A stretch of 64,000 bases of DNA from positions 806,001 through 870,000 of the forward strand of contig JAHLTZ010000001.1 of the NCBI GenBank assembly GCA_025786725.1, given 5' to 3'. The position numbers and the translations under genes were made by a program. Below the pieces are notes generated by a model. The model searched no databases and was not told the origin of the DNA. It worked only from the letters and a program-made list of their open reading frames with translations. Each line of letters opens with the position of its first letter. Positions within the stretch are counted from its first letter, which is position 1. Source of the stretch: Syncephalis fuscata (Eukaryota > Zoopagomycota > Zoopagomycetes > Zoopagales > Piptocephalidaceae). Of the stretch, positions 25,124 through 50,796 are shown piece after piece.

Positions 25124-25265
25124 CAGTAGTAACATAATAAATAACAGATTAATGAATAATTGTAATATAATATTTATTTAGATTGTTACTTTTATTGATA
25201 AATGCAGTTTATTTATATGCCTATTTATAGTTTAATAAATAGTAATATAATCCATTGATTTACTA

Positions 25266-26320: not shown

Positions 26321-26604
26321 GGTAGAAGTGTAGAAAGATAAAATTTAATCAATTCATATTTTATTTATTTATTAATTAATTAATTAATGGTTCTAACTAC
26401 AACATTAACTATAACAAAGTAGTATTTACTAGTGTATATACAGTGTCTCTGAAATCTGATTTGATATAGATTCGGATTACTAGTCATTTTGCTCAAATCA
26501 TTACAAAAGTAGTAGACATTAAGGAGGGGAAAGTAAAGTAAAGTGGACGGCAACTTTTGGTTTTCTTCTTTTTACTGCTTGTTTATTAATACATTTCTAC
26601 CCAT

Positions 26605-27410
26605 ATGGATACACCTGTAGACGGCGGAGGAAGCGGATTTCGCGGACGTGGACGAGGTATGCCGCGAGGCCGTGGATTCACTCGCGGTTCATTTGGTCGA
26701 GGTGGAGGTGGTAGTGGTGGTAGCGGCAGTGCCGGTGGCGGTGGACCTGCTAGCTTTAATCCTGTTTATCCTAGTGGCGCTAATAGGTAATACAGTAAGC
26801 AGTTTATTGTTTGCAAGCTAATATGAACATCCATGACTAGTGTTGCTGGTGTTGGTAGCAGTGGAGGTGGACCAGGAGCATTTCCATCTCCTGGACGTCG
26901 ACCAGTCAATAATCCAGCCAGTATGGGCGGCCATGCCAGTCTTACTAGCATTACCGGGTAAATAACTATAGCTATAGCTATAGCTATATATACATAATGC
27001 TTTATCCATTATGTAGATATACTAACGACTTGATAAACTATTAATAGTATTGATATGGGAATGACAGCTAATATGCCATTTGCACCACCTGTACAAAGTA
27101 GCAGTAGCAGTGGACATCGATCAAGTAGTGCTAATGTATTTGAAGTAGGTATTTTTATTAATATTGTTTATTAAATACTATTACTGGATTAGTGGCCATG
27201 ACTAACACAAATATCTATACCTCACTTTCACGATAGACAACGCCAAGTCGATGGGAGTTGGAACAGCGCGCTAAAGTAACTGTATCGCATGCACATATCG
27301 CTTCACCGGGCACGTATTATCCTCGTGTCTCTCGTCATAACAATCCTATCATTCCTGGACTGCCACGTCCTAAAGAAGTCGTAAATGTAGTAAATCTTGG
27401 TGATGCATAG
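26605..27410 (+). CDS. Gly/Arg-rich (RGG) protein of unknown function
   Basis: Exons 26605-26786, 26841-26957, 27048-27144, 27237-27410 (570 nt, 189 residues). The first exon is almost all RGG/GRG and Gly-Ser repeats (GFRGRGRGMPRGRGFTRG), usual for RNA-binding or methylated nucleolar proteins. The middle is Ser/Pro/Gly-rich and the last exon has a better conserved-looking SRWELEQRAKVTVSHAH, then YYPRVSRHNNPIIPGLPRP. No folded domain recognised. Intron 2 contains a tandem AGCTAT repeat (26967-26985). Function unknown; an RNA-related role is inference from composition. Confidence 0.7.
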
Positions 27411-28036
27411 TCTTACATGAACCTATAATACAGACATTATCGCGTGTTTTCATCTCTATGACTCAGTATGTGTAGGCTATTACCGTATTGTCATTGGTGT
27501 ATGTATGTAAATGGATGTACACGTCAACAGTTGCCAAATGGACTAGCATAAACGTCACTCGGCTACATGTACCAATTGTAAACGGCACTTCTATTCGTTC
27601 CTTCACCCACCAATTTTCAATGATGCAAATATTGGTCCACTGCTGATACCCGCATAACACTTGTACCTTTCTTTCATTCTTTCACCTTCACTTCGTGTGT
27701 TTCATACTGCCGCTATTACTACCACGCTGTGCTTTCTTATTCATATCTACTATCCTTAGTAATAGTAATAGCTTTATTATTGCAACTGTTTGTTTATTGC
27801 GTCTATGCAGCAAACAGCCAGTTGAAGAAGAAGCGACGACTGTTTATTGTTTATAACTGTTGCTGCTGTTGCATACCATCTCTTTTGTGGCTGTTTGATT
27901 GTTTAGAGTGTTTGTAGCAATCAGATTAGCTGCATTGACCTGAGTGTGTATAGTATACGTATTGTATACATTGCTTGGCTTGCAAGTACGCAAACTAGCG
28001 AGAAAGAGTAGAATATATAGTAGACTAGTTTTACTT
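27411..28036. other. intergenic region RGG protein / CCDC6-like
   Basis: 626 bp with pyrimidine-rich stretches (TTCTTTCATTCTTTCACC) that probably belong to the promoter and leader of the downstream gene. No supported ORF. Confidence 0.45.
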
Positions 28037-29885
28037 ATGGAGTTTCCACACAAATTGCGTCGGCTTTCACGTCCGGAACCTTTGCCGGAAAGTACAGCTG
28101 ATTTGCAGCAATTAGTACAACAGCAATCGGCTGAAATTCAGCGACTTAACAATCGATTGGCACTGTTTTTACGTTCGCAAGCGGCAGCAACATCTACTAC
28201 AAACAGTGCAGGTAGTGCAGTTGCTGGGGCTGATGCCGCGACCCACGCCTCTATTGTAAGTGAATTTATGATAAAAAATAGAATGGCTACCAAGATAGCA
28301 CATGGCTTGACTAATACATGCAATACTCTCTTTATGTTTGCCCCATTAGCCGCAAGGTAAACGGGAAATCCTTGAGGATGTTGAGCGTGATACCAAATCG
28401 CTGAATCAATCACTTGCCTCGGATTTGGGTCAGGTGAGTGCTATTTAATAAACGAGTTGATGGCACTAGCTAAATAGTTGACGTTTATTGCGATGGGGTA
28501 GGCTCGTCGTACAAAGTTGGCACTTGAACAGGGTGATCCTGTATTAAAGGACGATTTGCGTTCATTGATACCCAGTTCGTCAGATGATCCTATTGTACTG
28601 AAACAGGCGCTAGAGGAGGCTGTTAGTGTGGGACAGACACAGCAGGACTGGATTAAGAAATTGCGCTTTGAGTTAGAGATGGAAAACGGACAGATTAATA
28701 TACTGCGTCATGAAAACCAGCGTCTGCGTCAACTTACAGTGGATTTGCAAGCATCGGCCGAGCAGGAGGAAGAATATATATCGAACACGTTGTTAAAGCG
28801 TATTTCGGCACTTAAGAAAGAGAAGGGAGAGTTGCTGCAGCAAGTGGAACAAGAGGAAGAATATCTTACAAATACATTACAGCGCAAATTAGAAAAAGTA
28901 AGCTAATTAGCATCAGCGTGTATAAATAGTATATTTAGTTTACACGTATAATGTGTATTTAGTTACAACAAGAAAAGATTGATTTGGAAAATGCACTGGA
29001 ACGTGAACAGGAGTTTGTTGTTAATAAATTACAGAAGCAATTGGACGGGCTAAGGATGCAGCAGTCATCGGGGCGTGATTCCACCTCGGGCAGTGCCAGT
29101 GCTACCAATATGAGTTCGCCGATTGGGTCTCCTACCATGTAAGTCATAACAGTTTATTCCATATACGCTGCTAAACAAACGTATTAATGATAGGCGTCAT
29201 CATCGACGTCCATCCCACTCGGAGTACTTGAGTTCGCAGCAAACGGTTACAGAATTGTTGAAGGCCGAAGTCAATGGTGCACGCATAAAAATATCTGAAT
29301 TGGAAAAGGATTGTAAGTAATATTTATGGCAATAGCATTAACTAACAGTATTACCAGTAATTACATTACATAATCAAACGGGTGCTTATCGCAAGGAGCT
29401 TATTGAATTACGTCGAAGGACTGGATTACCCGTGGAAGATCTAGTGGCCGATGAAAGGTTAGATTGTTTATAGATTAGTCGAAATAAAGGCTTATATGTG
29501 TATGATTTTTGTTACTATTTTAGACTAAATACTGTACGCCATCCTATTATTTCTAGACAGGTAGGTGAATTTATTAATTCGATATGTATGCTATTAACAC
29601 AGTATTAATACAGAGATCCACCTCCAGTGTCAGTGGTAATCGATCGGAACCTACACCGATGGATACACCACGCGCTCGATCTGGTTCCAGTACGAGTGGC
29701 AGCAGTATTCATAACGAGCCACGATTTTCACAAAGTGTACCCGATCTGGGTCAGCCTACGCTTCGAGCAAATGGTAAGTCATGAATGATGCCACTACATA
29801 GAAATAAGAAAACGAACACGCTTTATTATTAGCCTCGCCGTCATCTATTAGTAAACGACGAAGTATAGGCTATGATGCGCGTTAA
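28037..29885 (+). CDS. CCDC6-like coiled-coil protein
   Basis: Long coiled-coil protein of the CCDC6 family, whose human member is a cytosolic/nuclear scaffold fused to RET in tumours. Exons include 28037-28257, then PQGKREILEDVERD after an intron, then 28502 onward. The hallmark repeated E-E-Y-x-x-N-x-L blocks are clear: EQEEEYISNTLLKRISALKKE, then EQEEEYLTNTLQRKLEK, then EREQEFVVNKLQKQL. A later helix TVTELLKAEVNGARIKISELEKD and a Ser/Arg-rich tail with PTPMDTPRARSGS follow. It ends RRSIGYDAR-stop; its TAA (29883-29885) overlaps the stop codon of the convergent gene. Other short introns are GT-AG. Cellular role in fungi unknown. Confidence 0.8.
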
Positions 29886-30898
29886 TTATCGAGTATAACT
29901 TGGACGGGATAGCGCTTACGCACGGAATTAAAGCAATGGATACGTCGTCCTTGCTATCAGACGCAGCGAATATGTTTTAAACTAATGATAAAAATAATGG
30001 TTGCGTCCTACTTACTTTAACCGCTTGAATGAAATCATGTTTGGAGATTCGTGCTTCAGTTAATTCGCCTCGAGCCAGTAGTTCGGCGCGAAATGTACCC
30101 GGCAATAAATCTAAGAGTTATAGAATTGTTATAATTATTTCATAGTGTTATTACCGCTATGTATACCTTGATGTATAGCGGTGGGTGTCAACCATCGTAT
30201 TTGACCATCCGGTAATAGATCCTCAACGGCAATATTAGCAATGGTTGTTTCAGTAATGTCACCGCTATTATTCCATAATATAACGTCAAAAGGAGAGTTT
30301 TGATCATTGGGATTGACGCCTAATGATGTGACCAGCTATTTACAAATACGACAACTATTACAATAGTATAATTACCATGCCGTTGACGTGCTTCGTTATA
30401 TATATCTCGATTAGTTGTTTTATGAGAGAGAAATGATGTATCTTGAGTATTGATTGGTTGGCTATCCAGTACAACTATAGGTAAAGGTGCTACATTACGT
30501 ATTAATGACACATTAGTTGTTTTTATACGTGATTGTAGCTACCATCATTATCATCATCATTGTGTTGAGTAGCAGTAAATGGCGATACTTCAATTGATAC
30601 GTGACCATCTCTACTCCATAGTAAACGAATCTATAAATATTAATTGTTATTAAGATAGCAGACGCATAATATATCTTTATTACTCGAGCAGTTTGTGCGT
30701 TTGCCTGTTCTTTTATCGTTTCATCTAGCTGTTGGCGTAGCTTGTCGATATTAGTTTAATAGTAAAATGGGCTGGATATCTACTATTAAAATAGTCGATA
30801 GAATCATATAATCGCTGTAAGTGTTGATCCAATAGTAAAATACCATGTTCTGGTTCATAGAGCATGGTTTCCAATAAGGAAAAGTTGTACTCTTTCAT
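29882..30898 (-). CDS. aminodeoxychorismate lyase-like PLP enzyme (class IV)
   Basis: PLP fold-type IV enzyme, closest in pattern to fungal 4-amino-4-deoxychorismate lyase (Abz2), which makes p-aminobenzoate for folate. Seen: FSLLETMLYEPEHGILLLDQHLQRL at the N-terminus, RIRLLWSRDGHVSIEVSPF, then PLPIVVLDSQPINTQDTSFL with SHKTTNRDIYNEAR, which carries the HKTTNR lysine motif. Next come FDVILWNNSGDITETTIANI and GLLPGT-type FRAELLARGELTEA, and the end CFNSVRK. Introns are GT-AG. One is easily missed: a GTAGCT donor in the Asn/Asp run near 30543, with its acceptor near 30494. One base seems missing near 30755 (between HFTIKL and IDKLRQQL). Exact substrate is not certain: branched-chain or D-amino-acid transaminase relatives share the fold. 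Confidence 0.75.
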
Positions 30899-31319
30899 GG
30901 TGGATTGATAAATGATAAATAAAGGAGAAAGAAGTAAAGTGTTTAATTTATAATTATTGATTGATAGAATCTATGGTATTCTAGCTATAAAAGTCATATA
31001 TCAGCGCAATAATTATCTGTTTTCTACTTTAGTTTATGCATCGATAAATATACACGTCAAACTAGTCAAGTTGCTTACTGGTAGTGTCTTTGCACCTTGA
31101 ATGAGCCGAATTCACCGCTATGTTAGCATATTTATGGAATAGAATTGCTTACAGCGTTTATGCAACCATAGTTTAAATAAAAGAATGACACAAATTCCGT
31201 AGGCAGCAAGTATAAAAGTTTAAAGTTCAATTGTTTACGATTTATACTGTAGTTAGAGATGTGACAGTAGTAAAACTACGTGATTATTGGTAATTTTTTT
31301 CATTTCGTCTTTTTTTACA
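30899..31319. promoter_or_regulatory. divergent promoter, ADC-lyase-like / Zwilch
   Basis: 421 bp between two divergent starts. AT-rich with a T-rich stretch (TTTTTTTCATTTCGTC) next to the Zwilch ATG. No other feature seen. Confidence 0.4.
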
Positions 31320-34300
31320 ATGAATTTTAAAAACACATTCATACAAGCTAGAAAGGAATGCCAACCACCTAATGTAAGAATAACATAGTAAATTATTATA
31401 GGGCATAGTAATGAGCAATATTATACATATACATGTGTATATAACACTTTAGTTATGTGGTATTGACTTGGATGCAGATACGCGTCTTTGGTATTTACCA
31501 TCAGAGGTCAAACATCCATTCCGCGATATCATCGGTGAGGCGTCCTTTTATTTACTAGAATGCAATGTTGGGCCGGTCAGTATGAATATAATGGGCACTA
31601 TAGTTGATGTTGATACTGTATCAATAGAGTAAAATAGCCCTTTTACCCGTTGAATGTTTATTGATTGATACACCATCAACAGCAGCAATAGTAACACCAG
31701 AATGCATAGCTAATGATGACAGTAAAAAGTCTAATGCAGGTTATTAATACTAAACATAACAAATTTTATTCTAATTAGTTTGGACAATAGAATACACAAC
31801 AGTGGCTATGGCCAAATAATATGAATTCATTCTGCCCACTTAAATATCAACATGCCCGGTAAGAGTGGTGCAGTTTATCTACACTATTTAGTATTAAATA
31901 CCAATAGACGCTATTTATCGTGTATTTCAGAAGCAGGTGTATTAAAGGAGACAGAAGAAATAAGCGCGCTATTTGTCTATTGTACAACAGCAGACATGAC
32001 TGATAGGATGTTATTGGGTATACATCATATTGAAAATAAAGGTTAGTCAGTAGTTTTATATTTCTGCGTATTTTTAATAGTTTAATAAACAAATGACAAT
32101 TTATTTATATAGGATTTGAGCGTAAAATAGATCAAATTACACGACAAGGTAATAATAGCAAATATAATTATGGAAATATGGTCATTTATTTTAACGTGTA
32201 GGACAAATGACCAGTAAAGAAGCATTAAAATCAATAGTGACCCTGATGGATAGTGAAAAACAGTCAGTAGGTAGAATGATAATAAATACAATAGCGTAAT
32301 TATATGTCAATATAGTTGATGTTTTCTGGTACTTTTGATATTGTGCCTCCCACCTCGGTAAATAATAACAATAATAACAATACCACCATTTCTACTAGTG
32401 CAACTAATGAGCTATCTATTGGTAATAATATAGCACTCTAGTAGTTATATCACACTGAAAGCCACTTGGCCCAATACATACAAAAATATTGTTGATACAT
32501 ATAAACATATTGAAGATACTACTGACACTGACGATGGCAATACTACACATTCTAAACATTGGCTATGGCCTAGTTATACCCAATGTGAATTACTAGTGCT
32601 AGTAAGAAGTAAATAGCCATATGTAACTAATAGCTAATCAAACCATTAGACAATACAAATGGCGTCTTGTTCAGTCGATTCCGAGGAGAATGATGTACTT
32701 TCAGTGCTATCTAATCAATTAAATCGATGCATTGAATGGTGTACATCGATAAAAGCAAACGCTGGGATGTGGCAGTGTTCCACTAATTCATCTGACACAG
32801 TGCCGTTCACGCAACGTGTTGAGCAATTTTTATTGTCCTATGCTCGTCGCGATTCATCTGCCATCGCCGATATCATCTATCAATCGTGTAACTTTTCTAC
32901 ACCTATTACAAATGCATCAATCAAATTACGGGAACTCGACTTTACAGAGCAGTTATGGCAACTATGTCAAATGGCCAATGACCAAGAAGAAATAGCCGAT
33001 GCTATTTATGCCGTCTTAGAAGAAGTAAGATCTGGTCGAGTCCAACCGACGGTAAGCTTTTACATAATATCGACATTGTTATTAATACTAGTACTAACTT
33101 TATTATAATAGATTCATCATTATAATCGTACAACATTGGCCAACCTGATACGTGATGCACGTCGCCTAAATACTATGGTTGATGCCGTTAAGCGAAGACA
33201 GCAGCTTGAGACTATTACCCTTGAAGCAGAACAATGTGTATCATCTCCGTTAAGCTGTATCACTGCCGTGGGTTTAGTTAAATTGCAACAGGATTATATT
33301 TATTATTTATCCGGAGCTGGTAAGTTACCTATCGTTTAATTACTTGACATGTGTACCAAAGGAGCTATTCACAAGCCTTTACTCACACGTAAAATAGACG
33401 GCGAATTAGTTAGTCCATCAAGTTTAGTAAGTGTATCGATAGTATTTTATTAGTGCAGCCTCTATTTTACATTAACATCATAATATCTCATTCTATATTT
33501 TATGCACTGATCTGCAATGTATAGGAATCACTATTTGGCCCATCGTTGTTATCTAACAGCCAAGCTCTTTTGACCCGACTTCAAGTAGCGCATCGTATCA
33601 TGGCGTTAGTTGAAATGCTCCGTATGCATTTACCATTGCTGTCGCGCGATACACTACGCCTACTGATACATGGTCTGTTCACACGTGTAGCGCATGAAAT
33701 GGCCTGCATTGGGCGTAAAGGTACATCCAGGAACGACGATAAGTCTGCAGCACCGATAGCCATTCCCGTCATTGATTGGACCACAGTTACACTATGCTGT
33801 CGGCTGGCCATTCCCCGTCTATCAAGTACGGCTAAAGCATTGATTCGCCGTTTATCAGCCATTGGGTAAGCGCTAATAGAGGACAACAGGTGGTGCATGT
33901 GTGTGGTGAGTGAATGAATGCATGCATGTAATGCCGATAAAAGACACTTTGGACTCTTTGCCAATGAATTAACGTTTAAACTCCGTGTATAGATGTCCAC
34001 CCACGCGGTACGCATTCAACCGGTTACATTGGATGAATATATTCAATTACCGCCACGTTTATCAAATAGTGGAGAAGCAGTGGCAGCAGCTACCGCACCA
34101 ATAACAACCCATGATATACTGCTGTTATTGAATAGTCAACAGCATTACCTGTCAGACACATTATTACCATCTATACCAGATGTCATGTCGTCAAGTGACA
34201 CCATGGCTACTTTAACTATACAGCAACAACAACAACAGCCACATCAGGCCTGCTCGCCGTCACTAAATGACAGTACCACAGTCGTCTCATATCCAGCCTC

Positions 34301-34379
34301 GTCTAGGAACGACAAAGACAATGCATCCCCATCAACTTTGTCACATAGCGTAATACTTGTCACTCAGACAATCCTTTAA
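31320..34379 (+). CDS. ZWILCH: Zwilch, RZZ kinetochore complex subunit
   Basis: Zwilch forms the Rod-Zw10-Zwilch complex, which brings dynein and Mad1/Mad2 to kinetochores. Many short exons. Matches to animal Zwilch run in order: LNINMPGKSGAVYLHYLVLN (animal LKINLP region), then the ATWPNTYK block, then (after an intron at about 32590-32647) LNRCIEWCTS, then LRELDFTEQLWQLC (animal SDLDFAEQLWCKM), EEVRSGRVQPTIHHYN (LQRGDIQPWLHSGS), and SCITAVGLVKLQQDYIYYL ([20 protein letters not shown]). Next come RLQVAHRIMALVEMLRMHLP and, in the last exon, LDEYIQLPPRL. The C-terminal extension is Ser/Gln-rich. An intron from 31577 (GTCAGT) to about 31628 keeps the N-terminal frame. The stretch 31780-31850 could not be put in one frame, so the model there is incomplete. 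Well-supported fungal Zwilch genes are uncommon. Confidence 0.8.
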
Positions 34380-36402
34380 TTCACAATGAATTTCATGATT
34401 ATGCACTGCACCATGGTCATTATGATGGTACAATATGACGAGGAGAACGAAGCAGGTAGAAATGCCGACACCTTGAATAAATTTAATGGGGCATTCAAAT
34501 AATTAATTACTGTCGGAGTGCAGTGTAAATGCAGAATGTCAATAAAACATGTCCGATCACACAGAAAGGCAATGGGGAAAGTGATTAAGTGGATGGCATG
34601 GAAGGAAGAAAGGAATACCGACAGTATAATAATGCTCAGTAATTCATTTGTAAATTTGGATAGTCAATAAACGAGAATGATGAATAGAAAGAATCTAAAC
34701 TTACTTGACCACGTGCAATATAGCACGCACATCCATCTAGTCTTTTTCTTAGTGGCAGTTTGGACCTGCGCCGTCCCCGTTTTTTCATGCCTTTCTGCAT
34801 AAATATCATATCCACACACGCACACACATACAACTACAAGTATACAGATGCATATCTATCTATATACACACCGGTATTCTCTAGGGCTTATTACGGTGAT
34901 CAGTTTTATTATTACTGTTATTACTGCTATTTCTACATTAGGCCTACTTATTATTAGCCACCATCATTGGTATTGCTATTGCTGCCACAGCGGTTACTAA
35001 AATAGGTCTACCTCGCCCAATCTTTTCTTCTCTCTTTCCCTCTCCTATCTCACTGCCACCGTGCTTCTTTCAATTTCGCTACACAACCGCCCTATTTTTA
35101 TCCTTTTGTTCTTGCGCTTTTACTTAAAAGTCGTAACGGACAATATAAGGGATTCTATATTACAAGTGTTTGATTATCAACTGAGCTATTAATACAGTTG
35201 CTGTCATCGTAAGCGGGCTTACCTCCTAGTGTTGTCGTCGTGTCGTGCTAACTAGTTGGCTTACTTCGCTCGTTCGTCTTAAAACACTATTTTCTTGCTA
35301 CCTTTATTCCTTGCATTGCCGCCTAGTACGTTTTACGTTCATCGTCATCGTTACTTGTGTGAGTGGTGTACGTTGTGTGCCTATAGCATACACGTCCTTT
35401 TTTCTTCTACTTCTTCGCCTATTAGTTTTCTAATACAATTTTCACCACTTTTATTACAACTACTACTCTACTACTCTACTATTACTCTACTATTGTTGAT
35501 TATTGCAGTGGTGACGGCTACTCCCACAACAATATCAATTGACAAACTATTGCAGCGTAAACAAGTTCTATGCACCATCTCTAAACGTGCATCGTAATCA
35601 TTCCCGTCAACCAGCCTTTATTCTATATTTGACTAGGTAAGTGAACAAACGAGCATGTACGATGCTACAAATGTGTCCGTGTCATTCAGTGTATCAAATG
35701 GTCGATTTCTTTACTATATAACCTGTTTCTGTTCGGATTGTTTTATCAATGTCAGTATCAATACGTATAAACAATGCTACGCATCAAATCTAAATCGTAG
35801 TACTGTTTGTGCATATTTAAATTAGTATTGTTAAAACAATACTGACGAAAACAGGTTATGATGGCAAAGAAAAAAGACCACTTTTGGCGTGTAACAAAAT
35901 TCAGGTGTAGCACGGATGAATGCTACTAAAGCTTGTCATTATTGTTTCTTGTATTATTCTACGTTCTACTTGTAGTGGAAGTGTTTGTGTACTTGTCTAT
36001 CGATTTGTACAAGTATTTAGATATATATAGAATGCTCAATCTTTTTTGATAATGCTTTTCCTTTCTATAATGGTCAGCTAAGCCCCGTTTCGTTGTCTCC
36101 TGTTTCAACCTGATTTGCTTCCAACTGTTGCCATTTTTACAAAAGTTCAAGGAAGAGTTTGTTACATTCTCTAACAATATGGGTACGGCGTGTGTATACC
36201 ACCCTTTCTTACCTCTTTCTTCTCGTCTATTTATCTAAATAACGGTTATTACATTTGCTCTTGGTCCTTTTTTTCCTTACTCGCTGTTGGCTATTTTTGA
36301 CCTACATTATACCATATTATCTGTGTAGTCTACAGTAATTACACGTATCGGCTACTACTTTTACTACACTACTACACTACTACTTTTAACTTTTACTCTT
36401 TT

Positions 36403-36434
<32 letters not shown>

Positions 36435-36506
36435 TTGGTACAAGCTTTTATGTACAATAGTGGTACTTATTCTAGTTCTTCTTACATATCAGCGCCATTT
36501 TAGTGC
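34380..36506. other. non-coding region left of the palindrome
   Basis: 2.1 kb. It contains pyrimidine-rich stretches, TACTAC microsatellites (about 36350-36435), a hairpin-forming repeat (35717-35859) and a good donor (CTAG/GTAAGTG at about 35637) with no supported exon. Short ORFs on the plus strand are Leu/Ser/Tyr-rich and look fortuitous. It may hold distal promoter or leader sequence of the first receptor gene. Confidence 0.4.
35717..35859. repeat. 143-nt imperfect inverted repeat
   Basis: The outer arms begin with ATAACCTGTTT and end with the inverse AAACAGGTTAT, and the inner parts pair through ATTGTTTTA/TAAAACAAT. About 40 positions pair with mismatches around a loop of about 60 nt. 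It is similar in size to the hairpins at 15948-16078 and 46178-46325 but unrelated in sequence. Confidence 0.65.
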
Positions 36507-37230
36507 ATTATTTCCAAACTTGTAGTGCAGTCGACCTTTCTGTCTGCAGCACGTATACTTTGTTTTCTTTCTTCTTATTTGCGTGTACGTACGGTGTAGT
36601 ATACGATACCAGTTCAATTGCTTCTCGGTTCCTGCTTCTTATTGCACGGCATATCTAGTCAAAAGGAGCTGGTTCTCTGTTCTTTATTTTCAATTTACCT
36701 TTTTGATATCCACTAGTAAGCATTGGACAGTAGTCTGTAAGTACTGGGCTATAGCGATAATGACCAATCCATCCGTGTACTCTATTGGATGTTGTACAAA
36801 TGTGACTTAGCACATTATATTATAATGCTAGTATAGCGCTATCCATATCCATATCCATATTATTGCTATTATGATGATGATGTAATGTAATGCGGCGGTG
36901 TTTAAAGATGACGTGGCAGGAGTGCGTAATTATTAATTCAAATCGAAGGAGTGTTGTTGAAAGGAGACAATTCTGTGTAAACAAAGAATACGGCAGTTGT
37001 TGCTGTGATGATATGGTTCCCCAGACAACATCGATTGATGACGCAACAGTAGTGCGATGTCGATAACGTTGCTAGTTACGTTGACATGGCGTGCTAGTCA
37101 ATGGAATCAATGTAATAGCGATAATGAGTGAATGAGAGCAGATTGATTGATTAATTGAACACTTGACCACAACTTTTGACATTTAGACATTTACTAATCG
37201 ATGTTATGCGTATTTTATAGACAAATCAGT

Positions 37231-38277
37231 ATGACACGCCTTAGTAGTACACTTGCCTTTGTTGGCATCGCCTGCTTACTGGCTACTACGGCGATGGCTA
37301 GACCTGATGCTCCAACGTATAAGCAACCCATCACGACTTCAATGGGTACACCGGAAGTTTGTAGATTTCCATTCTTTTATGATAATAAGTGGTTTTATAC
37401 CTGCATTGCTACGGATATTGAGCCTGGTAATCCTGGTAAGCCATGGTGCGTGCTTAAGGACGAATATGTGCCAGCCAAGCCTGCAAACAACTGGCTTTAC
37501 TGCGACATGAGCAAGTTCCAATCTGCTGGTATTTTATCCGATGGCCACCGATACTCCTGTCTTCCGCAAACGCTACCTAATATAACATACACTGGCTGCA
37601 TTGGTGACACTGAAAAGGGGCCTTCTAGCTGCAAGACTGATAATGACGGTACTGTGGTTACTGGCTCTTGCCTTACTATAAGGTCTCAATTAGATCTCGG
37701 TGGTGACAATACTGCTAAAACCGGACTTGCCATCTCGGTCGGTGCCAACGACGCAAATTCCGATGATGATTCTACCAAAAAAGGCAGCAATAATGTTGTT
37801 ATTAGCTTGGCTGCAGTGCTCAGCGTCGCCGGCGTAGGCTTATTGGCTGGTCTATTCATTTATCGTCGCCGCCAATCGCGTCAAAATCTATCATGGCGCC
37901 AACAAAATAAAGATGAAGGTCAAATGGAATCGAGCGCAGCTGGCCCCGGATTTGCTGCCATGGCTGCCGTTGGTGCTACCGGCTATCGTGAATCAGCATC
38001 AAGCAGTAATATCTTTTCGCCAGTCAGTCCAGGCGAGCGTATGTACCCAGTTATCAGCACATATACACCTACATTAGGCGACGAGTTAGAGATCCAACCA
38101 GGTGATAAGGTCAGCATTCTTATTGAATATGACGATGGATGGTGCCAGGGTGTCAATCATACACGCGGTGGTCTTAAAGGTGTATTCCCACGTCACTGTG
38201 TTGATATGACTGCCGGTATGCCAGTAGATGATGCAGACAAGACGGTCAATTCAAGTACAGCCACCATCGCCGTATAA
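37231..38277 (+). CDS. receptor-like protein A: signal peptide, FN2-like domain, TM, SH3
   Basis: 348 residues, single coding exon. Order: signal peptide 1-24 (MTRLSSTLAFVGIACLLATT, cut after AMA), a fibronectin-type-II/kringle-like module about 44-91, four or more further cysteines to about 147, a TM helix about 189-211 followed by YRRRQSRQ, a Ser/Ala/Gln-rich juxtamembrane part, and a C-terminal SH3 domain 272-326. The FN2 signature is C-x-F-P-F, an aromatic pair before C, PWC and finally WLYC. The SH3 has ALYDY-like STYTPTLGDELEIQPGD, then DDGWCQG and GVFPRHCVDM. I start at 37231, because an acceptor (TATTTTATAG) ends at 37220 and the Met at 37201 would sit in the leader intron; a donor (TCT/GTAAGTAC) lies at about 36738. 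Topology suggests a surface sensor linked to SH3 signalling. No known family name. Confidence 0.85.
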   Translation: MTRLSSTLAFVGIACLLATTAMARPDAPTYKQPITTSMGTPEVCRFPFFYDNKWFYTCIATDIEPGNPGKPWCVLKDEYVPAKPANNWLYCDMSKFQSAGILSDGHRYSCLPQTLPNITYTGCIGDTEKGPSSCKTDNDGTVVTGSCLTIRSQLDLGGDNTAKTGLAISVGANDANSDDDSTKKGSNNVVISLAAVLSVAGVGLLAGLFIYRRRQSRQNLSWRQQNKDEGQMESSAAGPGFAAMAAVGATGYRESASSSNIFSPVSPGERMYPVISTYTPTLGDELEIQPGDKVSILIEYDDGWCQGVNHTRGGLKGVFPRHCVDMTAGMPVDDADKTVNSSTATIAV

Positions 38278-39203
38278 ATCATCCATTTCGCTTTTAATTA
38301 TCGTACTTTTCTCTCTCTCTTGATTCTTTACGCTCACTCCACTTCCACTGCCAACACAATACACCACATTACACCTACGATATATATATATATACATACA
38401 TATATAATCACATTAACAATAGCCTCCACACCTACATCAGCCACCACCATATTAAACCTTGTTGACAGCCTACCAAATGGCACCGCAATAATGATGATGG
38501 CTACTATTATTATTACAGCTATTATTATTACTATTAACTGTCATCGGTTAACGTAATAATAGTAATGTTGCCGGTATGGCTAACAACAATAAACGATACA
38601 ATGACGCATACGATCCCGTTGCGCTGTTGACCAGCACACAGGACTGTATGCAATCAATGGCGTACGTGTGCGTATAGATGTACGTGTTGATGCTTTGTAT
38701 ATGTGTACGCAAATCTATATATTATATATCCATAGGTGTAATCGTGTTGTAGTGTTATACTTTTATTATTATTATAATCTTGATTTACACTTGTTACTGA
38801 TTAGTATTATATTGCTAACATTAACATTGCCATCACACCACCAACGCCACTACTACTACCACTACCACAACGATAACTAGCACAATCCATACTCCAATTT
38901 CTGTCACAGCCCATCTGTTCTTTTGGTTAAATGCTTGGTTTATTATTTATCCATAATTCCGTTTATTAATTGAGCCATTTGTGATATGCCCTAATTCACA
39001 AAGGTGCTACATGTTTACGCGTTCATTGTTGATTAAATAACGATGATTTACATATAATATTGAGTATATGGTAGATGAATAGCCATATTAAATACATGTG
39101 TTTATGTGTGTGTTTATGTTTGCGTGCGTGTTTATAATATGTATAATAATCATTGTAACAGCTTATACAATTAAATTAAGATGGATCCAATTTAAAAAAG
39201 CTT
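38278..39203. other. 3' flank of receptor A (within palindrome arm)
   Basis: About 930 bp between the receptor stop and the RAD51D stop, copied almost exactly at 40941-41868. AT-rich with TATATA and TTATTATTA runs and a TGTGTTTATGTGTGTG tract near 39098-39115. Short ORFs here are identical in both arms only because the whole arm is copied. Confidence 0.6.
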
Positions 39204-40779
39204 CTATGTGATGACAATGGCTATATAATAGTTAAATAATGGCAATAAAATGTTAAGTTAGAAATTAGTAATTTATATTGTAATGTACTTGCTTGCTGTT
39301 TGGACTTTACAAGTAAACAGTATCTAACAGATTTAGATTGCGATTCACCATCCCGCGCAATATAGATACGCGCATGAGGTGTATAAGACCAAGTAGCACC
39401 CAGAGCTGGTTTAGACAAGGCATTTGACTGAGGTGGCTGGATAGCTAAAAGAGCTGTAGAATCTAAAGCGATTCCGTCGTCATCTTCAATAGGTTGACGC
39501 ACCGCACTATTTAATATCTATAGATGCATGATTAAATTTAAATTGCTAATAAAACCATTCAACTTACCAAGACTATACTGGAATGTTTGTGAGCTATATC
39601 GGAAAGGACATAAGCCAGTTCTGACATAAGAACATGTCCTAAACACAGTTATAGCATATAAAAGTGACTATTACAGTTATATACCTTGACGTGCTTGGTT
39701 GGATAGTAAAGGTGCCAATACAGCCGATACCGAATCAAGAACAATCAGCAATGGAGACTTTTACGGGAATAGTAGTAAGTAATTAACTCATCAAGTATTA
39801 AGGTTGTTATTCAATATTTATAATTGCTATACTTACTTGAGAGTTACTAAAGCCGCCCAACTGTTCAAGAGCATTAAATACATCATAAATAGTATTGCAG
39901 GAAAATACGCGAACATATTTTAACACCGACATACAATCTATATGATTCCAGTTTTAGTAAATTATATATCAATTTAACATTTAGATACCTTCACGGTTAG
40001 ACCATTGATTACAAAGAAGTGTATATAGCTTATGGGCGGAAAATGAGCCACACGTGTCTATATAGGCAATGAATGGAGTGGTACCATTAGCACTTTGATC
40101 CTGGTTATTATCATTATCATTGTTATCAGTTTGATTAAGCATTAATGAATGTAATAACATAAGACATTGCACAACTGTACTAAAGGCAATCTAGACTCAT
40201 AATCAGTTAATGTCACCTGTTACAGTTATACTATTTAAATATTTACTTGGGTTTTTCCCGCTCCTGCTGGCCCAAATAATTCGGTAATTTGACCTGGCAG
40301 TAGACCTCCATTCAATAATCGATCTATACTAATAGTAGTGATCCTTAAGTATGCTATTAAGCGGTTGCAGATTTAAACTATATATTTACCTAGTGTAGCC
40401 AGTGGATAATCGAGTGCCTGACGGTAGTATTCCAGCTGGAAAAAATGATGTAGCTGATGTAATAAGCGAGCTAGCAGTATCGAGAGAAATATTAAAACTG
40501 TTTATTACTCGACTATACAACTGTTCAACTAGCTGTGCCTTTTCATTATTAAACCAATTCAACCAGATTTAAACTTACCGAATGTGATAGATTTGTTTTT
40601 TGACAAAGCGTTTGTTTGTCAGTAGTAAGTACGTCTTGAGCTGAAAGTAATCGTATATAGTTAAAGCAATGACTACTATTGACGTACTATATGTTATTAT
40701 TACCCGTGTAAATACTGGCATTAGACAATATGTCTAGTACTTCTGCTGGTATTCCGTCAATGTTTGAAAGGCGCGTCAT
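39204..40779 (-). CDS. RAD51D: RAD51D-like RecA-family recombination protein
   Basis: RAD51 paralogue for homologous recombination. It starts MTRLSNIDGIPAEVLDILSN at 40779 and is interrupted by many short introns. In order: AQDVLTTDKQTLCQKTNLSH, LDYPLATLDRLLNGGLLPGQ, the Walker A GPAGAGKTQ, FIAYIDTCGSFSAHKLYTLL, then SVLKYVRVFSCNTIYDVFNA, Walker B SPLLIVLDSVSAVLAPLL, then KPALGATWSYTPHARIYIAR and YCLLVKSKQQAT. KPALGxxWSxxPxxRIxx and the short C-terminus after CLxKSxxQ point to RAD51D rather than RAD51, RAD51C or XRCC3. An Asn/Asp-rich insertion (TDNDNDNN type) follows Walker A. The last intron is 39221-39288 and the last exon is only 39204-39220 (TIVIT-stop), lying inside the left palindrome arm. 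The gene sits in the palindrome spacer. Confidence 0.85.
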
Positions 40780-40939
40780 GAAGTTGTTATGGTATACAGA
40801 TGTATTGACGAAAATAAACAAGCTGGCTGGAATAGTAACCAGACTGTTAAAAACGTTTAATTACAATATAAATTACTAATTTCTAACTTAATATTTTATT
40901 ACCATTATTTAACTATTATATAGCCATTGTCATCACATA

Positions 40940-41868
40940 GAAGCTTTTTTAAATTGGATCCATCTTAATTTAATTGTATAAGCTGTTACAATGATTATTA
41001 TACATATTATAAACACGCACGCAAACATAAACACACACATAAACACATGTATTTAATATGGCTATTCATCTACCATATACTCAATATTATATGTAAATCA
41101 TCGTTATTTAATCAACAATGAACGCGTAAACATGTAGCACCTTTGTGAATTAGGGCATATCACAAATGGCTCAATTAATAAACGGAATTATGGATAAATA
41201 ATAAACCAAGCATTTAACCAAAAGAACAGATGGGCTGTGACAGAAATTGGAGTATGGATTGTGCTAGTTATCGTTGTGGTAGTGGTAGTAGTAGTGGCGT
41301 TGGTGGTGTGATGGCAATGTTAATGTTAGCAATATAATACTAATCAGTAACAAGTGTAAATCAAGATTATAATAATAATAAAAGTATAACACTACAACAC
41401 GATTACACCTATGGATATATAATATATAGATTTGCGTACACATATACAAAGCATCAACACGTACATCTATACGCACACGTACGCCATTGATTGCATACAG
41501 TCCTGTGTGCTGGTCAACAGCGCAACGGGATCGTATGCGTCATTGTATCGTTTATTGTTGTTAGCCATACCGGCAACATTACTATTATTACGTTAACCGA
41601 TGACAGTTAATAGTAATAATAATAGCTGTAATAATAATAGTAGCCATCATCATTATTGCGGTGCCATTTGGTAGGCTGTCAACAAGGTTTAATATGGTGG
41701 TGGCTGATGTAGGTGTGGAGGCTATTGTTAATGTGATTATATATGTATGTATATATATATATATCGTAGGTGTAATGTGGTGTATTGTGTTGGCAGTGGA
41801 AGTGGAGTGAGCGTAAAGAATCAAGAGAGAGAGAGAAAAGTACGATAATTAAAAGCGAAATGGACGAT
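40940..41868. other. 3' flank of receptor B (within palindrome arm)
   Basis: Inverted near-identical copy of 38278-39203, AT-rich with the same TATATA, TAATAATAA and CACACATAAACAC tracts. No gene supported. Confidence 0.6.
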
Positions 41869-42939
41869 TTATACGGCGATGGTGGCTGTACTTGAATCGA
41901 CCGTCTTGTCTGTATCATATATTGGTACACCAGCAGTCATATCAACACAATGACGTGGGAATACACCTTTAAGACCACCGCGTGTATGATTGACACCCTG
42001 GCACCACCCATCGTCATATTCAATAAGAATGCCGACCTTATCACCTGGTTGGATCTCTAACTCGTCGCCTAATGTAGGTGTATATGTGCTAACTACAGGA
42101 TATAGGCATTCTGTAGGACTAAGTGGTGAAAGTATTTGACTGTTTTCTTCAGAACCGTAATAACTTGATGTATCGTTATTGATTCTAGAGGTACTTGCAG
42201 CAGTCATAGGAACAGTAAGTTCAGTACCAATAGTACTTGGATCAATTCGTTGCATACTCCTGTCTTCGTACTGCATCGACATACTTTGTCGTGATTGCCG
42301 ACGACGATATACAAATAAACCAGCAAGTAGAGCAATGGCACCTACAAAAAATGTAATACCTAGAACGCCACCAAGACCAATGCTGCTTTTATTGGGTGAG
42401 TCGGTGTTTTCGGTTACAAGAGCCGCTTTGGAAACAGAATCGACGCTTTCCAAGTTTTGTTTTACACTTAAACATGCTCGGTAATCTTGTTTACCACCAA
42501 CGTCAACGAGACATTGAAATATGCCGTTTTTAGTATCAGCACTACATCCCATATATGTCTCATTTTTGACTTTTTGAGGAAGACAGTCTTTACGTACGCC
42601 ATCAACTATAGCACCAGGCGCATGGAATGTTTTCATATCACAGTAGGCCCATTCGGGAGATTTGGCGTTCTGAGAGACATATCCTTTTTTAAGCATGCAC
42701 CATGGTTTGTCGTCCGTGCTACCAAGAGAAATACAAGTTGACCAATACTTTTTACGACTGAAAAATGGTAGCTCGCACGATGTTGGCGTGCCCATAGCAA
42801 CCGTGATGTTTTTACTATCCTGTGGATTGTTTGTAGTATCCTGTGGGTTATCTTGTGAGTTATCAGGTCTAGCCATCGCCGTAGTAGCCAGTAAGCAGGC
42901 GATGCCAACAAAGGCAAGTGTACTACTAAGGCGTGTCAT
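41869..42939 (-). CDS. receptor-like protein B: signal peptide, FN2-like domain, TM, SH3
   Basis: 356 residues, inverted partner of receptor A. The signal peptide is identical, and the SH3 is nearly so (GDELEIQPGDKVGILIEYDD, GVFPRHCVDM). The part between is strongly different: an Asn/Gln/Asp-rich spacer (NSQDNPQDTTNNPQD) not found in A, then an FN2-like module with the same cysteine frame (C-x-L-P-F-F, TC, PWC, WAYC) but most other residues changed. Two further C-pairs follow, then a different TM helix (GLGGVLGITFFVGAIALLAG) and a different juxtamembrane region rich in Ser/Thr/Tyr. The RRRQSRQ stop-transfer motif is kept. An in-frame Met 10 codons upstream (42969) belongs to the likely leader intron, as in A. 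A and B are probably a divergent pair with shared regulation and different ligand specificity. Confidence 0.85.
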   Translation of the reverse strand: MTRLSSTLAFVGIACLLATTAMARPDNSQDNPQDTTNNPQDSKNITVAMGTPTSCELPFFSRKKYWSTCISLGSTDDKPWCMLKKGYVSQNAKSPEWAYCDMKTFHAPGAIVDGVRKDCLPQKVKNETYMGCSADTKNGIFQCLVDVGGKQDYRACLSVKQNLESVDSVSKAALVTENTDSPNKSSIGLGGVLGITFFVGAIALLAGLFVYRRRQSRQSMSMQYEDRSMQRIDPSTIGTELTVPMTAASTSRINNDTSSYYGSEENSQILSPLSPTECLYPVVSTYTPTLGDELEIQPGDKVGILIEYDDGWCQGVNHTRGGLKGVFPRHCVDMTAGVPIYDTDKTVDSSTATIAV

Positions 42940-43663
42940 ACTGATTTGTCTATAAAATACGCATAACATCGATTAGTAAATGTCTAAATGTCAAAAGTTG
43001 TGGTCAAGTGTTCAATTAATCAATCAATCTGCTCTCATTCACTCATTATCGCTATTACATTGATTCCATTGACTAGCACGCCATGTCAACGTAACTAGCA
43101 ACGTTATCGACATCGCACTACTGTTGCGTCATCAATCGATGTTGTCTGGGGAACCATATCATCACAGCAACAACTGCCGTATTCTTTGTTTACACAGAAT
43201 TGTCTCCTTTCAACAACACTCCTTCGATTTGAATTAATAATTACGCACTCCTGCCACGTCATCTTTAAACACCGCCACATTACATTACATCATCATCATA
43301 ATAGCAATAATATGGATATGGATATGGATAGCGCTATACTAGCATTATAATATAATGTGCTAAGCCACATTTGTACAACATCCAATAGAGTACACGGATG
43401 GATTGGTCATTATCGCTATAGCCCAGTACTTACAGACTACTGTCCAATGCTTACTAGTGGATATCAAAAAGGTAAATTGAAAATAAAGAACAGAGAACCA
43501 GCTCCTTTTGACTAGATATGCCGTGCAATAAGAAGCAGGAATCGAGAAGCAATTGAACTGGTATCGTATACTACACCGTACGTACACGCAAATAAGAAGA
43601 AAGAAAACAAAGTATACGTGCTGCAGACAGAAAGGTCGACTGCACTACAAGTTTGGAAATAAT

Positions 43664-44494
43664 ATACTGCAGTAAAGCTTTGCGTTGCGTTCAAATGAAT
43701 AAAAGTAAACGCTATTGAATAAAAGAAAGTCAATAGCAATTGCTAATAGGTGCAATAACTATAGACTATGAAGATATGAAGTTAAATGCAAGTCGGAATG
43801 GCCAACAACAAAGGAAAGAAGACCAAAGGCTTCAAAGACTAAGACTAGCGACAGCTATTCAGATAGACAATTAAGTAAAGTGTGAGTGAGTGTGAAAGAG
43901 TGAGTTAGGAAAGAGAAGCGAGTAGAAGCGTGCAGGATAGCAAAGGATAGCGTGTTAAAACCTGATGCGCATGCCACTTACCATGCAATCCACATGAATT
44001 CACAATAATAATTAAGAACAGGTTAAGAGAAAAAGGCACAAGGTTAAACAACAATGCCTGCTTTCTGTGAAAGGCGCGACAAGGCAAAACTGTCCTACAC
44101 ATGTGCATCTAGAATACATGCAATTTACTTTTATACTATTCATAGTTGCACATCTTACAGTGCCGAGCAGCAATTAAGGGAGTCGAGTATCATCAATGCA
44201 GCCACTATTCCTACCACCACCAACACTATTATTTTATTATTGCTGCTGCTAGTGCTGTAACATCTATGGTGTTACAAATAGCAATGAACAAGTTTATTTC
44301 AATCTAATTCTGCATAATTTCATGGTACTAAGAGTATTGGCACATATGGACTGGCAGAACGCATGTACTATGTCGTGCTAGTTTGTGCCATGTATCAATA
44401 ACCGGTAATGTAAAGTAATGTGTGGTATTAGATAGACAATGAATGAAAACAAATATAAACTCTTTTCTATTACATATGCGACTAGAAACCAATA
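43664..44494. other. intergenic region right of the palindrome
   Basis: 831 bp of unique sequence holding the 3' end of the DnaJ gene and whatever lies upstream of receptor B. A 14-codon ORF with Lys-rich sequence (MANNKGKKTKGFKD) at about 43799 is too short to support. GAGTGAGTGTG-type simple repeats near 43882-43900. Confidence 0.4.
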
Positions 44495-45897
44495 TTAAGA
44501 AGAAGTAAATCGTTGGAATTCATCACACATCGGCAAAGGAGCCCGTTCTGCACGACGAACAGCCTCCTCGTCATAGCCAATGCCGAACCAGCCTTTGGCC
44601 CGTTGAATCTCCTGTTGCCGTCCATGGCGTTCCTGGCGACAACGTCGTTCCAAATGATAGGCGTAGTCGTTCTCGATTGTTTGCTCATAGCGGGCCAATC
44701 GCTGCTTATTGCCACCCACATACGAGTTAAGATCGCGGGCATTCACATAGTATGGCACGTGACGGGGTGTCGTATGTTGCTGTGAATGATGATTGTAAGT
44801 GCGACTGAATGAATAGGTCGGCTCAGAAGGCCCAGAGAAGATGTTACTTGAAAAGGTAATAAATAAAAGGAGTAGCAGTGGTAGTAATTGAACTAAATAA
44901 CCAAAACCTGTCGTATTCTCTTCTCGAGCTGCTCTACGCTGTTGTTGTTGTTGTTGTTGAGCTGCTCGACCACCACTATTAAATCGTTGAAATCTTACAC
45001 CATTGCCCATAAATGATGCTGATGAAAAGCCTGTATTTATATTAATTAATTAATAAATTACATATACATATTATAATCGATATCAATAATCTATTTACCT
45101 TCATTAAATCCACCATTGAAAAACATATTAAATAATTGTTCAGGCGTAATTTCTGATTCAAAATTAAATGCAGCACCGCCACCACCATGATGAAATCCAG
45201 GACTGCTACCACCACCTCGAGATTCTGGATCAGCACCATATCGATCATAATGCTCTCGTTTATCTTGATCACTTAATATTGTAAATGCTTTACTAACCAC
45301 TAAATAAATAAATAAATATCTATTTAATTAATAATTGATATTAATCAACAACTTACACTTGAATGCTTCATCTGCACCAGGTGCATTATTTTTATCTGGA
45401 TGCAATTGAAGCGCCAACTACACTGATGTTAATTTCAAGCTATTTATTTCTGCTAGACTAATTACCTTGCGATATGCTTTTTTAACATGTACTTCAGTGG
45501 CAACCTTTTCAAGTTCTAAAATACCATAGAAATCACTTTTTGAACATGATAACACACGCTTTACCGCTATTGTATTCTCTTCCGTATAACTGGCAGACGT
45601 TTTTGATGAAGAGGGCCCACTGTCAGTTGATGCAGTGCGTGCACCACTACCACTGCCGGTACTTGTTGCAGTACGTTGTCGCAATTCAGGCTGTGCATTT
45701 GTACTGCGAGCTGATGAATCGGCCGTACTAGCTGTTTCGGCCAGTACAAGCTTTTCTATCAGCGATTCAGCCTCACTCGTTGGGTAGAGATTATTTGATT
45801 TACGTGCAAATCTCAATGCCCCTGCTACATCACCTTCATCGCGTTTCCGCCGCGCTATACCAATGCAACGAGACGCTTCGTCTTTATTCATCTCCAT
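44495..45897 (-). CDS. ER membrane DnaJ protein (DNAJB12/DNAJB14 type)
   Basis: Hsp40 co-chaperone anchored in the ER membrane, J domain facing the cytosol, working with Hsp70 in ER-associated degradation. Exons in order: an N-terminal MNKDEASRCIGIARRKRDEG (the conserved start of this sub-family) and a Ser/Thr-rich linker; the J domain SKSDFYGILELEKVATEVHV, KKAYRKLALQLHPDKNNAPG (HPD present) and AFTILSDQDKREHYDRYG; a Gly/Phe-rich stretch; ITPEQLFNMFFNGGF; a Gln-run; the TM segment LVQLLPLLLLLFITF; and a C-terminal DUF1977-like domain with PYYVNARDLNSYV and ending CDEFQRFTSS. Introns are GT-AG of 50-80 nt. Domain order is exactly that of DNAJB12/B14 and of yeast-type Hlj1 relatives. Confidence 0.9.
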
Positions 45898-49539: not shown

Positions 49540-50523
49540 CTAATTGAGACTAGCATAATATCTTTCATTATATGGATCATTAATGGTTACATTAGAGGCA
49601 GCCAGTAATATAGGCGTTTCTAATTCCATATTTCTAGATTGGAGTAGTGCTTGTAGATCGTTGGTTCTACCGGCGGAATCTGGCCATGTATTATCGGGAT
49701 AGCAGCATAGCATAGCTCGACGCGTATGTAGAAAGTCTGTCAAGTAGGCGCGTTCAGATCTTTGACCACGCTGCCCGGTAAGATTAATGATTCTTTGGAT
49801 ATTAATATCCGGCTCTGTAAGATGCCAACCATGTTGCACGATTGTATCGTAAAATATAGTGATACCCAGCGCTGATTGAATATTAAGACGGTGGGCAAAT
49901 CGAAGGGCTGGTTCAAAGTACATTTCACGCGCTAGTTTTAGTTGAGCATTGCGAAAGACCGCATCGTTCTGCGCTGTTCTACGCCAGGCATTAGGAAAGC
50001 CATTTAGTTTATTGACACTGCTACGCTGTGTATCACATGGATCGAGCGAGGCAAGACGTCGTAGTTCAGGTATGTAAGAGGCAAATGGATTATTGTCGTC
50101 AAGTCGTTGTCGATTGTATCGTTCAATGACCATTAGTGCATCGCCGGTGGCAGTGGTAAATCCAACCACACCGGCCGTAAAGCCGCGTTTATCATTAAGA
50201 TTCTCTATATAGTCATAATGAGGTCGGTCATCGCCATTCTCAAATGCACTTGTTATACGTCGAGCCACCATGGCTGTGTATTCGCTTGCATCGGCCATTG
50301 GCCAGTGGTCAGTATCGGGGAACTCGCCAACGACCGATTCTGAGTATGAGTTTGCACAGCTATTTGAGCTTTTCTTTAAACGTGAAAACTTAAACGCCGA
50401 ACATAAATCATTATCAGGTAGATAATTCCCCGAGCAGTAACGCCATGCGCCATCAACCATACAACAACAAGCTGTAATGATCAATACAATACTTAATAAA
50501 TGATAATACACCGCGAACAACAT
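49540..50523 (-). CDS. secreted GH46 chitosanase
   Basis: Endo-acting glycoside hydrolase that cuts chitosan. Single exon; the true start is ATG 50523 (327 residues). A signal peptide is clear: MLFAVYYHLLSIVLIITACC. GH46 motifs: the catalytic acid Glu95 in RRITSAFENGDD, the second catalytic residue Asp111 in YIENLNDKRGFTAGVVGFTT, then GDALMVIERYNR, PELRRLASLDPCDTQ, then REMYFEPALRFAH, then the substrate-groove block SALGITIFYDTIVQHG. Cysteine-bearing N-terminal extension before the domain (CSGNYLPDNDLCSAF). GH46 is mainly bacterial, known also from some zygomycete fungi and algal viruses; no introns here in an intron-rich neighbourhood. Chitosan is a cell-wall polymer in zygomycetes, so self-wall remodelling is possible. 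Confidence 0.92.
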   Translation of the reverse strand: MLFAVYYHLLSIVLIITACCCMVDGAWRYCSGNYLPDNDLCSAFKFSRLKKSSNSCANSYSESVVGEFPDTDHWPMADASEYTAMVARRITSAFENGDDRPHYDYIENLNDKRGFTAGVVGFTTATGDALMVIERYNRQRLDDNNPFASYIPELRRLASLDPCDTQRSSVNKLNGFPNAWRRTAQNDAVFRNAQLKLAREMYFEPALRFAHRLNIQSALGITIFYDTIVQHGWHLTEPDINIQRIINLTGQRGQRSERAYLTDFLHTRRAMLCCYPDNTWPDSAGRTNDLQALLQSRNMELETPILLAASNVTINDPYNERYYASLN

Positions 50524-50796
50524 TGTATTCAACTAGTTAGTGAGTATGCGAGTACTTGTTCTATTCGTAAGCAAAACTGTCTTTATTTAAAGCTCAAGTA
50601 TGAATCAACGCTTGCTTGTGTTCCACCTGACTATGTCAGTGGTCCGATCCATCATAATCGATTTATAACTGGCACAAATGTGTATTATATACACAAAAAG
50701 ATAACACATAAGTAATTAGTTTTAATTTGACCACTAATACATTATTGTTATTATCAACTACCATTATTATTACATTTTGTTTGTTATTATCAATTG

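Follow-up and report, generated by a model that had tools for sequence, protein, structure and literature searches.

How can two receptor genes be almost identical at both ends and in their flanks, yet differ so strongly in between? The question is raised by a palindrome in the zoopagalean fungus Syncephalis fuscata, located in a window of 64,000 nt (C1:806001-870000, from a genome of 28,950,602 bases in 299 contigs). Its two inverted arms carry one single-exon receptor gene each, A and B, and enclose a spacer occupied by a RAD51D-like gene. Our best reading, which we consider probable, is that A and B are a long-standing pair of receptors with concerted evolution of their flanks.

The inverted-repeat search resolved the palindrome into three pairs, 36502-37308/42862-43668 (99% identity), 38307-39284/40860-41837 (978 nt, printed as 100%), and 38001-38320/41826-42145 (90%). 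The only other inverted pair of at least 80 nt among the four listed for the whole window was a 103-nt pair elsewhere. Base-by-base alignment agreed, placing arm mismatches at 3 of 802 sites in the window's 5′ arm part (36628, 36805, and 36893) and at two sites in the 3′ arm part (39243 and 39252). The near-identity of the inverted arms, claimed in a first-pass annotation of this DNA, is thus borne out. Divergence along the arms is not even. Between the near-identical flanks lies a central cassette, in which only 363 of 702 aligned codon bases (51.7%) are identical between A and B. The same annotation described sharp breaks on both sides of this cassette, which holds for the 5′ edge, at the end of the signal peptide (37308/37309), but not for the 3′ edge, which in the window copy is graded, with 11 arm differences across 38056-38281. 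Nei-Gojobori (NG86) estimates of synonymous divergence (dS) across the edges support the described pattern, with values of 0 for the signal peptide, 1.65 for the ectodomain, and 0.09 for the SH3 domain plus tail; dS was not computable, because of saturation, for the FN2 domain alone and for the transmembrane (TM) plus juxtamembrane region. The A and B proteins share all residues of the signal peptide (100%), 36% of those in the ectodomain, 26% in the juxtamembrane region, 93% in SH3, and 76% in the tail. Over about 2 kb of sequence outside each arm, similarity was limited to one match of 88 nt at 70% (E 0.003) and one of 22 nt (E 0.5). The palindrome is real. The joining of two haplotypes head to head was considered and is unlikely: the outer flanks differ, and A, B, and the spacer also occur on a separate contig, C56, which carries distinct variants.

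Both proteins are ordered as a signal peptide, an FN2-like ectodomain, a hydrophobic TM helix, and a C-terminal SH3 domain, and the cassette spans the protein from the end of the signal peptide to the start of SH3. The FN2-like and SH3 assignments made at first pass were confirmed by profile scores above the Pfam cut-offs in A and B, respectively, for FN2 (PF00040; 29.5 and 24.9 bits against 22.2), SH3_9 (36 and 36.9 bits against 30), and SH3_1 (27.8 and 25.8 bits against 22.9). Under the S. fuscata name, the protein database returned the RAD51D-like neighbor among the matches listed but neither A nor B, and the deposited annotation may lack both receptor genes.

Evidence on how the arms are kept alike came from the second copy of the locus. 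Contig C56 (21,811 bases) aligns to window positions 36919-58744, continues in contig C5, and holds A, the spacer, and B. It begins within the left arm, and the left outer junction is therefore not visible on it. Its palindrome is ∼1% diverged from that of the window; the two copies differ at 15 of 1,574 columns in the spacer and, as background divergence, at 106 of 15,120 aligned columns to the right of the palindrome, with 93 transitions and 15 transversions among the substitutions. We placed the four arms, two per copy, in one alignment and classed each substitution, the test thus covering two copies only. In the 3′ arm (38282-39284), eight substitutions were specific to a copy and common to both of its arms, none was arm specific, and two occurred in the window's right arm alone. 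Where C56 extends into the 5′ arm, one substitution was copy specific and none arm specific. The cassette had no copy-specific and 318 arm-specific substitutions, and the initial 83 bases of the SH3 part had none and one (at 38113), respectively. Further along SH3 and tail (38139-38281), two substitutions were copy specific, whereas eight were private to the right and two to the left arm of the window, and two to the right arm of C56. Copy-specific variants that are common to both arms, with none that is arm specific in the 3′ arm, indicate that the arms were made alike within each copy, after the copies had separated. The 3′ edge on C56 lies nearer to the cassette, with three differences over the equivalent of 38056-38281, and its B protein deviates from the window's B by five amino acids, all in the tail and each matching the residue in the tail of A. 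The conversion tract on C56 therefore extends closer to the cassette than in the window copy. Collectively, these patterns support arm-to-arm gene conversion, as had been proposed at first pass.

The second copy spans the window from 36919 to at least 64000 (contigs C56 and C5), beginning in the left arm of the palindrome. No second copy was found for four test stretches of C1, located within window positions 24000-36480, at C1:300001-306000 (shorter related stretches do occur), and at C1:940001-946000. A heterozygous or duplicated block may begin at the palindrome, as would follow if heterozygosity had been lost at a fragile site; alternatively, the break at this position may come from the assembler.

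The age of the cassettes was assessed with two related receptors, compared as proteins: P0001, a JGI record on a 6,871-base contig, and P0002, from S. plumigaleata. All 24 signal-peptide residues and 18 of 21 in the tail are common to these two, compared with only 45 of 154 (29%) in the ectodomain. Ectodomain identity is higher between A and P0001 (72/159; 45%) and between B and P0002 (65/152; 43%), and the juxtamembrane region follows the type as well (29/50 and 21/58, respectively). By sequence similarity, P0001 thus carries an A-type and P0002 a B-type cassette. Trees were built from 14 rows, namely A, B, and the 12 best of 59 matches to the receptor query. The cassette tree grouped A with P0001 (support 87/88) and B with P0002 (98/98, starred); the flank tree grouped A with B (75/3) and P0001 with P0002 (92/83). 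In approximately unbiased (AU) tests, cassette data rejected A+B (P = 2.4e-4) and P0001+P0002 (2.5e-4), as well as the crossed pairings (4.1e-4 and 1.9e-4), whereas flank data rejected A+P0001 (5.7e-5) and B+P0002 (4.8e-5). Diagnostic columns supporting sharing by type, by genome, or crossed stood at 16:2:6 in the cassette and 1:14:0 in the flanks. In every one of 5,000 resamples of ectodomain columns, type sharing exceeded genome sharing, and in 99.8% it exceeded crossed sharing. The conflict between the cassette and flank trees supports old, separately kept cassettes, which, judged from these proteins, look older than the species split.

Several points weigh against this reading. The groupings submitted to the tests were picked after the alignment had been viewed, and the 87/88 for A+P0001 in the cassette tree is limited. 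A tree from the ectodomain only did not resolve A+P0001, with weaker AU P values (0.003-0.007), and diagnostic columns for the ectodomain alone stood at 9:2:5; over the entire cassette, type against crossed sharing gave a P value of 0.052. The flank tree, with its 75/3 for A+B, draws on few columns and came with printed long-branch warnings. P0001, compared as a protein only, and P0002 may come from different species and need not lie in one palindrome. As for the conversion test, C56 may be either the other haplotype or a recent segmental duplicate, and polishing of the assembly may have contributed to the likeness of the arms.

Within the isolate, both cassettes are now conserved. Between window and C56, cassette A shows three synonymous and no amino-acid differences, and cassette B five synonymous and none, all from one isolate, which supports present purifying selection or constraint on both. 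The absence of amino-acid differences against eight synonymous ones speaks against haplotype-dependent cassettes within the isolate, the wider population being outside the scope of the comparison. Between A and B, 148 cassette codons encode different amino acids, 47 are synonymous, and 39 match exactly; synonymous sites between A and B are saturated, and the McDonald-Kreitman-like contrast of 148/47 with 0/8 is thus suggestive at most. Six-frame searches of the genome with protein A and the fn2 profile, which distant forms can escape, revealed no third cassette, the four full matches being A and B on C1 and on C56. Besides these, the genome search gave one weak SH3-only match (C261:31148-31318; E 6.7e-4). 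The exchange of cassettes with another allele or locus, put forward at first pass, is not supported by these results, since both copies encode the same A and B cassette proteins and the genome offered no further cassette.

The spacer adds a second gene to the palindrome. Its protein matches the S. fuscata database entry P0073 at 99% over 90% of the query, our gene model and that of P0073 having a two-residue difference at the third exon. A PDB search placed RAD51 homolog 4 in the top 3 of 28 listed entries (E 3.3e-26 to 4.5e-26); the query was an earlier gene model that differs from the final one only at the C-terminal end and stop. The Walker A motif GPAGAGKT is present. The C terminus of P0073, PLSSHRSFFKLDPS, reads from 39220-39176, within the left arm, and is similar by eye to the end of the S. 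plumigaleata RAD51D-like protein (ELFKFDSSS). At the assembly level, the spacer has opposite orientations in C1 and C56. The flipped gene on C56 runs into the right-arm copy of the exon and remains open, with three amino-acid differences and no stop; a flip of the spacer thus leaves the RAD51D-like gene unbroken, provided that the arms are alike. This recombination gene takes its last exon from whichever arm faces it. The first-pass annotation was silent on the spacer gene and its in-arm last exon, and the inversion on C56 was beyond its view. The arm was probably duplicated out of a neighborhood in which a receptor gene and a RAD51D gene converged. For S. plumigaleata, P0002 and the RAD51D-like protein P0074 are each recorded on a contig of 975,987 bases, and the equal sizes make it very probable that the two are linked, though not necessarily adjacent.

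In the reading that we favor, A and B would be an old pair of single-pass surface receptors housed in the S. fuscata palindrome. Homologous recombination between the inverted arms repeatedly copies the 3′ flank, the SH3 end, the signal peptide, and the promoter region across, as the variant patterns show, and is sometimes resolved with a flip of the spacer, for which the evidence is at the assembly level. The cassettes would be too diverged to take part, and conversion would halt at their edges; once the cores had diverged, recombination would engage the flanks only. Sequences that are 52% alike make poor substrates for gene conversion, and selection would therefore not be required for the sharp cassette edges. 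With conversion halted at the diverged cassettes, A and B would have been apart since before the S. plumigaleata lineage split off, which the protein trees support. Purifying selection would now hold both cassettes constant within the isolate. The pair may act as two sensors or adhesins with common expression and one SH3 output but different extracellular ligands, candidates being the host wall, a partner, and the fungus's own wall. A self/non-self role is possible.

That A and B began as idiomorphs of one locus, were joined head to head in S. fuscata, and are still alternatives in the S. plumigaleata lineage appears rather unlikely to us. This history might parallel that of homothallic fungi carrying both mating-type idiomorphs, and P0001 and P0002, with nearly the same flanks and unlike cassettes, would fit it. 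Among the matches listed, S. plumigaleata has a single such receptor, the B-type P0002, with the RAD51D-like protein on a same-sized contig. The missing A-type entry is weak evidence, however, because A and B of S. fuscata, although both encoded in the genome, are likewise missing under that species' name from the matches listed. Moreover, both copies in the S. fuscata isolate carry A and B, and no mating gene is linked, since none of the eight HMG-box matches in the genome falls on C1. A related proposal, which we regard as unlikely, is that in this early-diverging fungus the locus might be the equivalent, built from receptors, of a mating or compatibility locus with two idiomorphs, with ancient, trans-specific A/B recognition cassettes, common flanks, and one SH3 output, present as a self-compatible mirrored pair in S. 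fuscata and perhaps one at a time in relatives. An allorecognition or host-recognition locus under diversifying selection, with cassettes kept different and varying between individuals, would account for edges at the signal-peptide end and the SH3 start, which confine the variable part to the outward-facing region, the TM helix, and the juxtamembrane region. The many amino-acid differences between A and B, against none between copies, point the same way within the limit set by saturation. However, the cassette proteins are identical in both copies, no third cassette emerged from the genome searches, and low identity by itself can halt conversion at the edges. In addition, the A-P0001 ectodomain identity of 45% is not out of line with the 53% between the RAD51D-like proteins of the two species. 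We hold this explanation to be quite improbable. The self/non-self part of the first-pass annotation was not supported by what could be tested, and an allorecognition or mating function is conjectural.

Almost identical flanks around saturated cassettes could also arise from a recent inverted duplication in which the center of one copy was replaced by a diverged cassette, through introgression or ectopic conversion. The genome searches revealed no donor, though, and the same event, with the same two cassette types, would be needed in the P0001/P0002 lineage, which makes this history very improbable. Nor is it at all likely that the assembler made the palindrome, the arm identity, or the spacer inversion. 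Short reads struggle with identical arms, and the spacer orientation does differ between the two contigs. Nevertheless, both contigs carry the palindrome, each with its own variants in A, B, the spacer, and the arms; neither the window nor C56 contains an N, and C1 is 1,005,272 bases long; and the outer flanks differ, while A and B types occur in other records. The spacer inversion alone is more open to artifact than the palindrome. The old receptor pair with concerted flanks thus remains our preferred reading, and Table 1 lists the positions of its parts.

Table 1. Positions, in window coordinates, of the palindrome and the genes and domains that it carries
Feature	Position	Strand	Description	Basis
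Left palindrome arm	36507..39284	+	5′ region, gene A, 3′ flank; RAD51D-like last exon at inner end	Inverted-repeat search, base-by-base alignment
Right palindrome arm	40860..43663	-	Equivalent parts around gene B; mirrored RAD51D last exon	Inverted-repeat search, base-by-base alignment
Receptor gene A	37231..38277	+	348 aa, one exon	fn2 E 7.4e-7, SH3_9 E 6.4e-9
Receptor gene B	41869..42939	-	356 aa, one exon	fn2 E 2e-5, SH3_9 E 3.3e-9
Cassette A	37309..38055	+	Mature ectodomain, TM helix, juxtamembrane region	Identity break; hydropathy peak at residue 189; modelled helix 190-219
Cassette B	42091..42861	-	Mature ectodomain, TM helix, juxtamembrane region	Identity break; hydropathy peak at residue 192
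FN2 domain of A	37360..37503	+	C1:843360-843503	fn2 profile search
FN2 domain of B	42640..42777	-	C1:848640-848777	fn2 profile search
SH3 domain of A	38050..38202	+	Residues 274-324	Pfam
SH3 domain of B	41944..42093	-	Residues 283-332	Pfam
Spacer	39285..40859		Inverted on C56 (C56:2364-3937, minus), outer parts in unchanged orientation	
RAD51D-like gene	39176..40779	-	347 aa from 10 exons; last intron (39221-39328) spans the junction of spacer and left arm, in which the final exon (39176-39220) lies	
Mirrored RAD51D last exon	40924..40968	+	In right arm; C56 equivalent C56:4003-4047 follows flipped gene	

The best-known palindromes homogenized by conversion lie on animal sex chromosomes. Arm-to-arm gene conversion and spacer inversion are described for the human Y palindrome P6 and other mammalian sex-chromosome palindromes, in which inverted arms are kept >99% alike by conversion, as in S. 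fuscata, with occasional inversion between them (PMC3723533); in S. fuscata, such an inversion is seen at the assembly level. Unlike those palindromes, the S. fuscata arms are <3 kb long and lie in autosome-like fungal DNA, each has an unconverted core encoding a receptor ectodomain, and a RAD51D-like gene with one exon in the arm occupies the spacer. The HML, MAT, and HMR boxes of yeast are mating-type cassettes with common flanks. In Komagataella phaffii, flip-flop mating-type loci invert through recombination in inverted repeats (PMC8709784), and the S. fuscata locus resembles such systems in having two unlike cores between common flanks, in inverted orientation, with, at the assembly level, an inversion via the repeats. 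In contrast to flip-flop loci, its cores are FN2/TM/SH3 membrane receptors instead of transcription factors, and each arm provides a separate promoter region for its receptor. What is inverted on C56 is the spacer alone, so that no gene is switched; with genes left in place and cores of another kind, the locus falls outside the definition of a flip-flop mating-type locus. A compact fungal palindrome that converts all but the outward part of each gene, with outward parts that seem older than the species, offers a clean natural test of where conversion stops and of whether the edge is maintained by selection or simply by divergence. Should related species carry the cassettes as alternatives, the locus would become a candidate for recognition or mating in Zoopagomycota.

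In domain layout, A and B resemble fungal single-pass TM proteins with a cytoplasmic SH3 domain (P0013-P0059; Piptocephalis, Basidiobolus, and Mucoromycota), which combine a signal peptide or N-terminal ectodomain, a TM helix, and the C-terminal SH3 motif YTPTLGDELEIQPGDKV. They differ from this family in being a mirrored pair with concerted flanks and an ectodomain above the Pfam fn2 cut-off. Yeast Fus1 and Sho1 are also TM proteins with cytoplasmic SH3 domains, the likeness being in layout only. The ectodomains share sequence matches and four conserved cysteines with the FN2 domains of fibronectin, MMP-2/9, factor XII, and mannose receptors, the matches to solved domains including MMP-9 (E 5.6e-5) and fibronectin (E 8.5e-4). 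Unlike those proteins, A and B are predicted to be single fungal membrane receptors with SH3, and the resemblance would not imply collagen or gelatin binding. The available passages of the literature naming S. fuscata do not concern the receptor palindrome. Among the papers listed for FN2/SH3 transmembrane proteins in early-diverging fungi, none was on fungal receptors by title, although printed accounts may still exist, and those listed for a mating-type locus in Zoopagomycota were, judged by title, on peptides.

No RNA family reached the gathering threshold at positions 35000-45000. Elsewhere in the window, an open reading frame of glycosyl hydrolase family 46, the chitosanase family, occupies 49540-50532 on the minus strand (E 8.4e-45). 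Syncephalis species are mycoparasites whose hosts are chitosan-walled fungi, and a chitosanase-family gene is of interest in such a parasite. A dispersed repeat of ∼340 bases lies at 22002-22344, to which nearly all of at least 47 listed genome matches correspond. Pfam searches further identified an ammonium transporter (6201-7595, minus strand), a CAP secreted protein (11672-12502), a bZIP factor (17363-19084), radical SAM and MoaC (molybdenum cofactor) open reading frames (22675-25123), and a ferric-reductase-like oxidoreductase (52750-54017).

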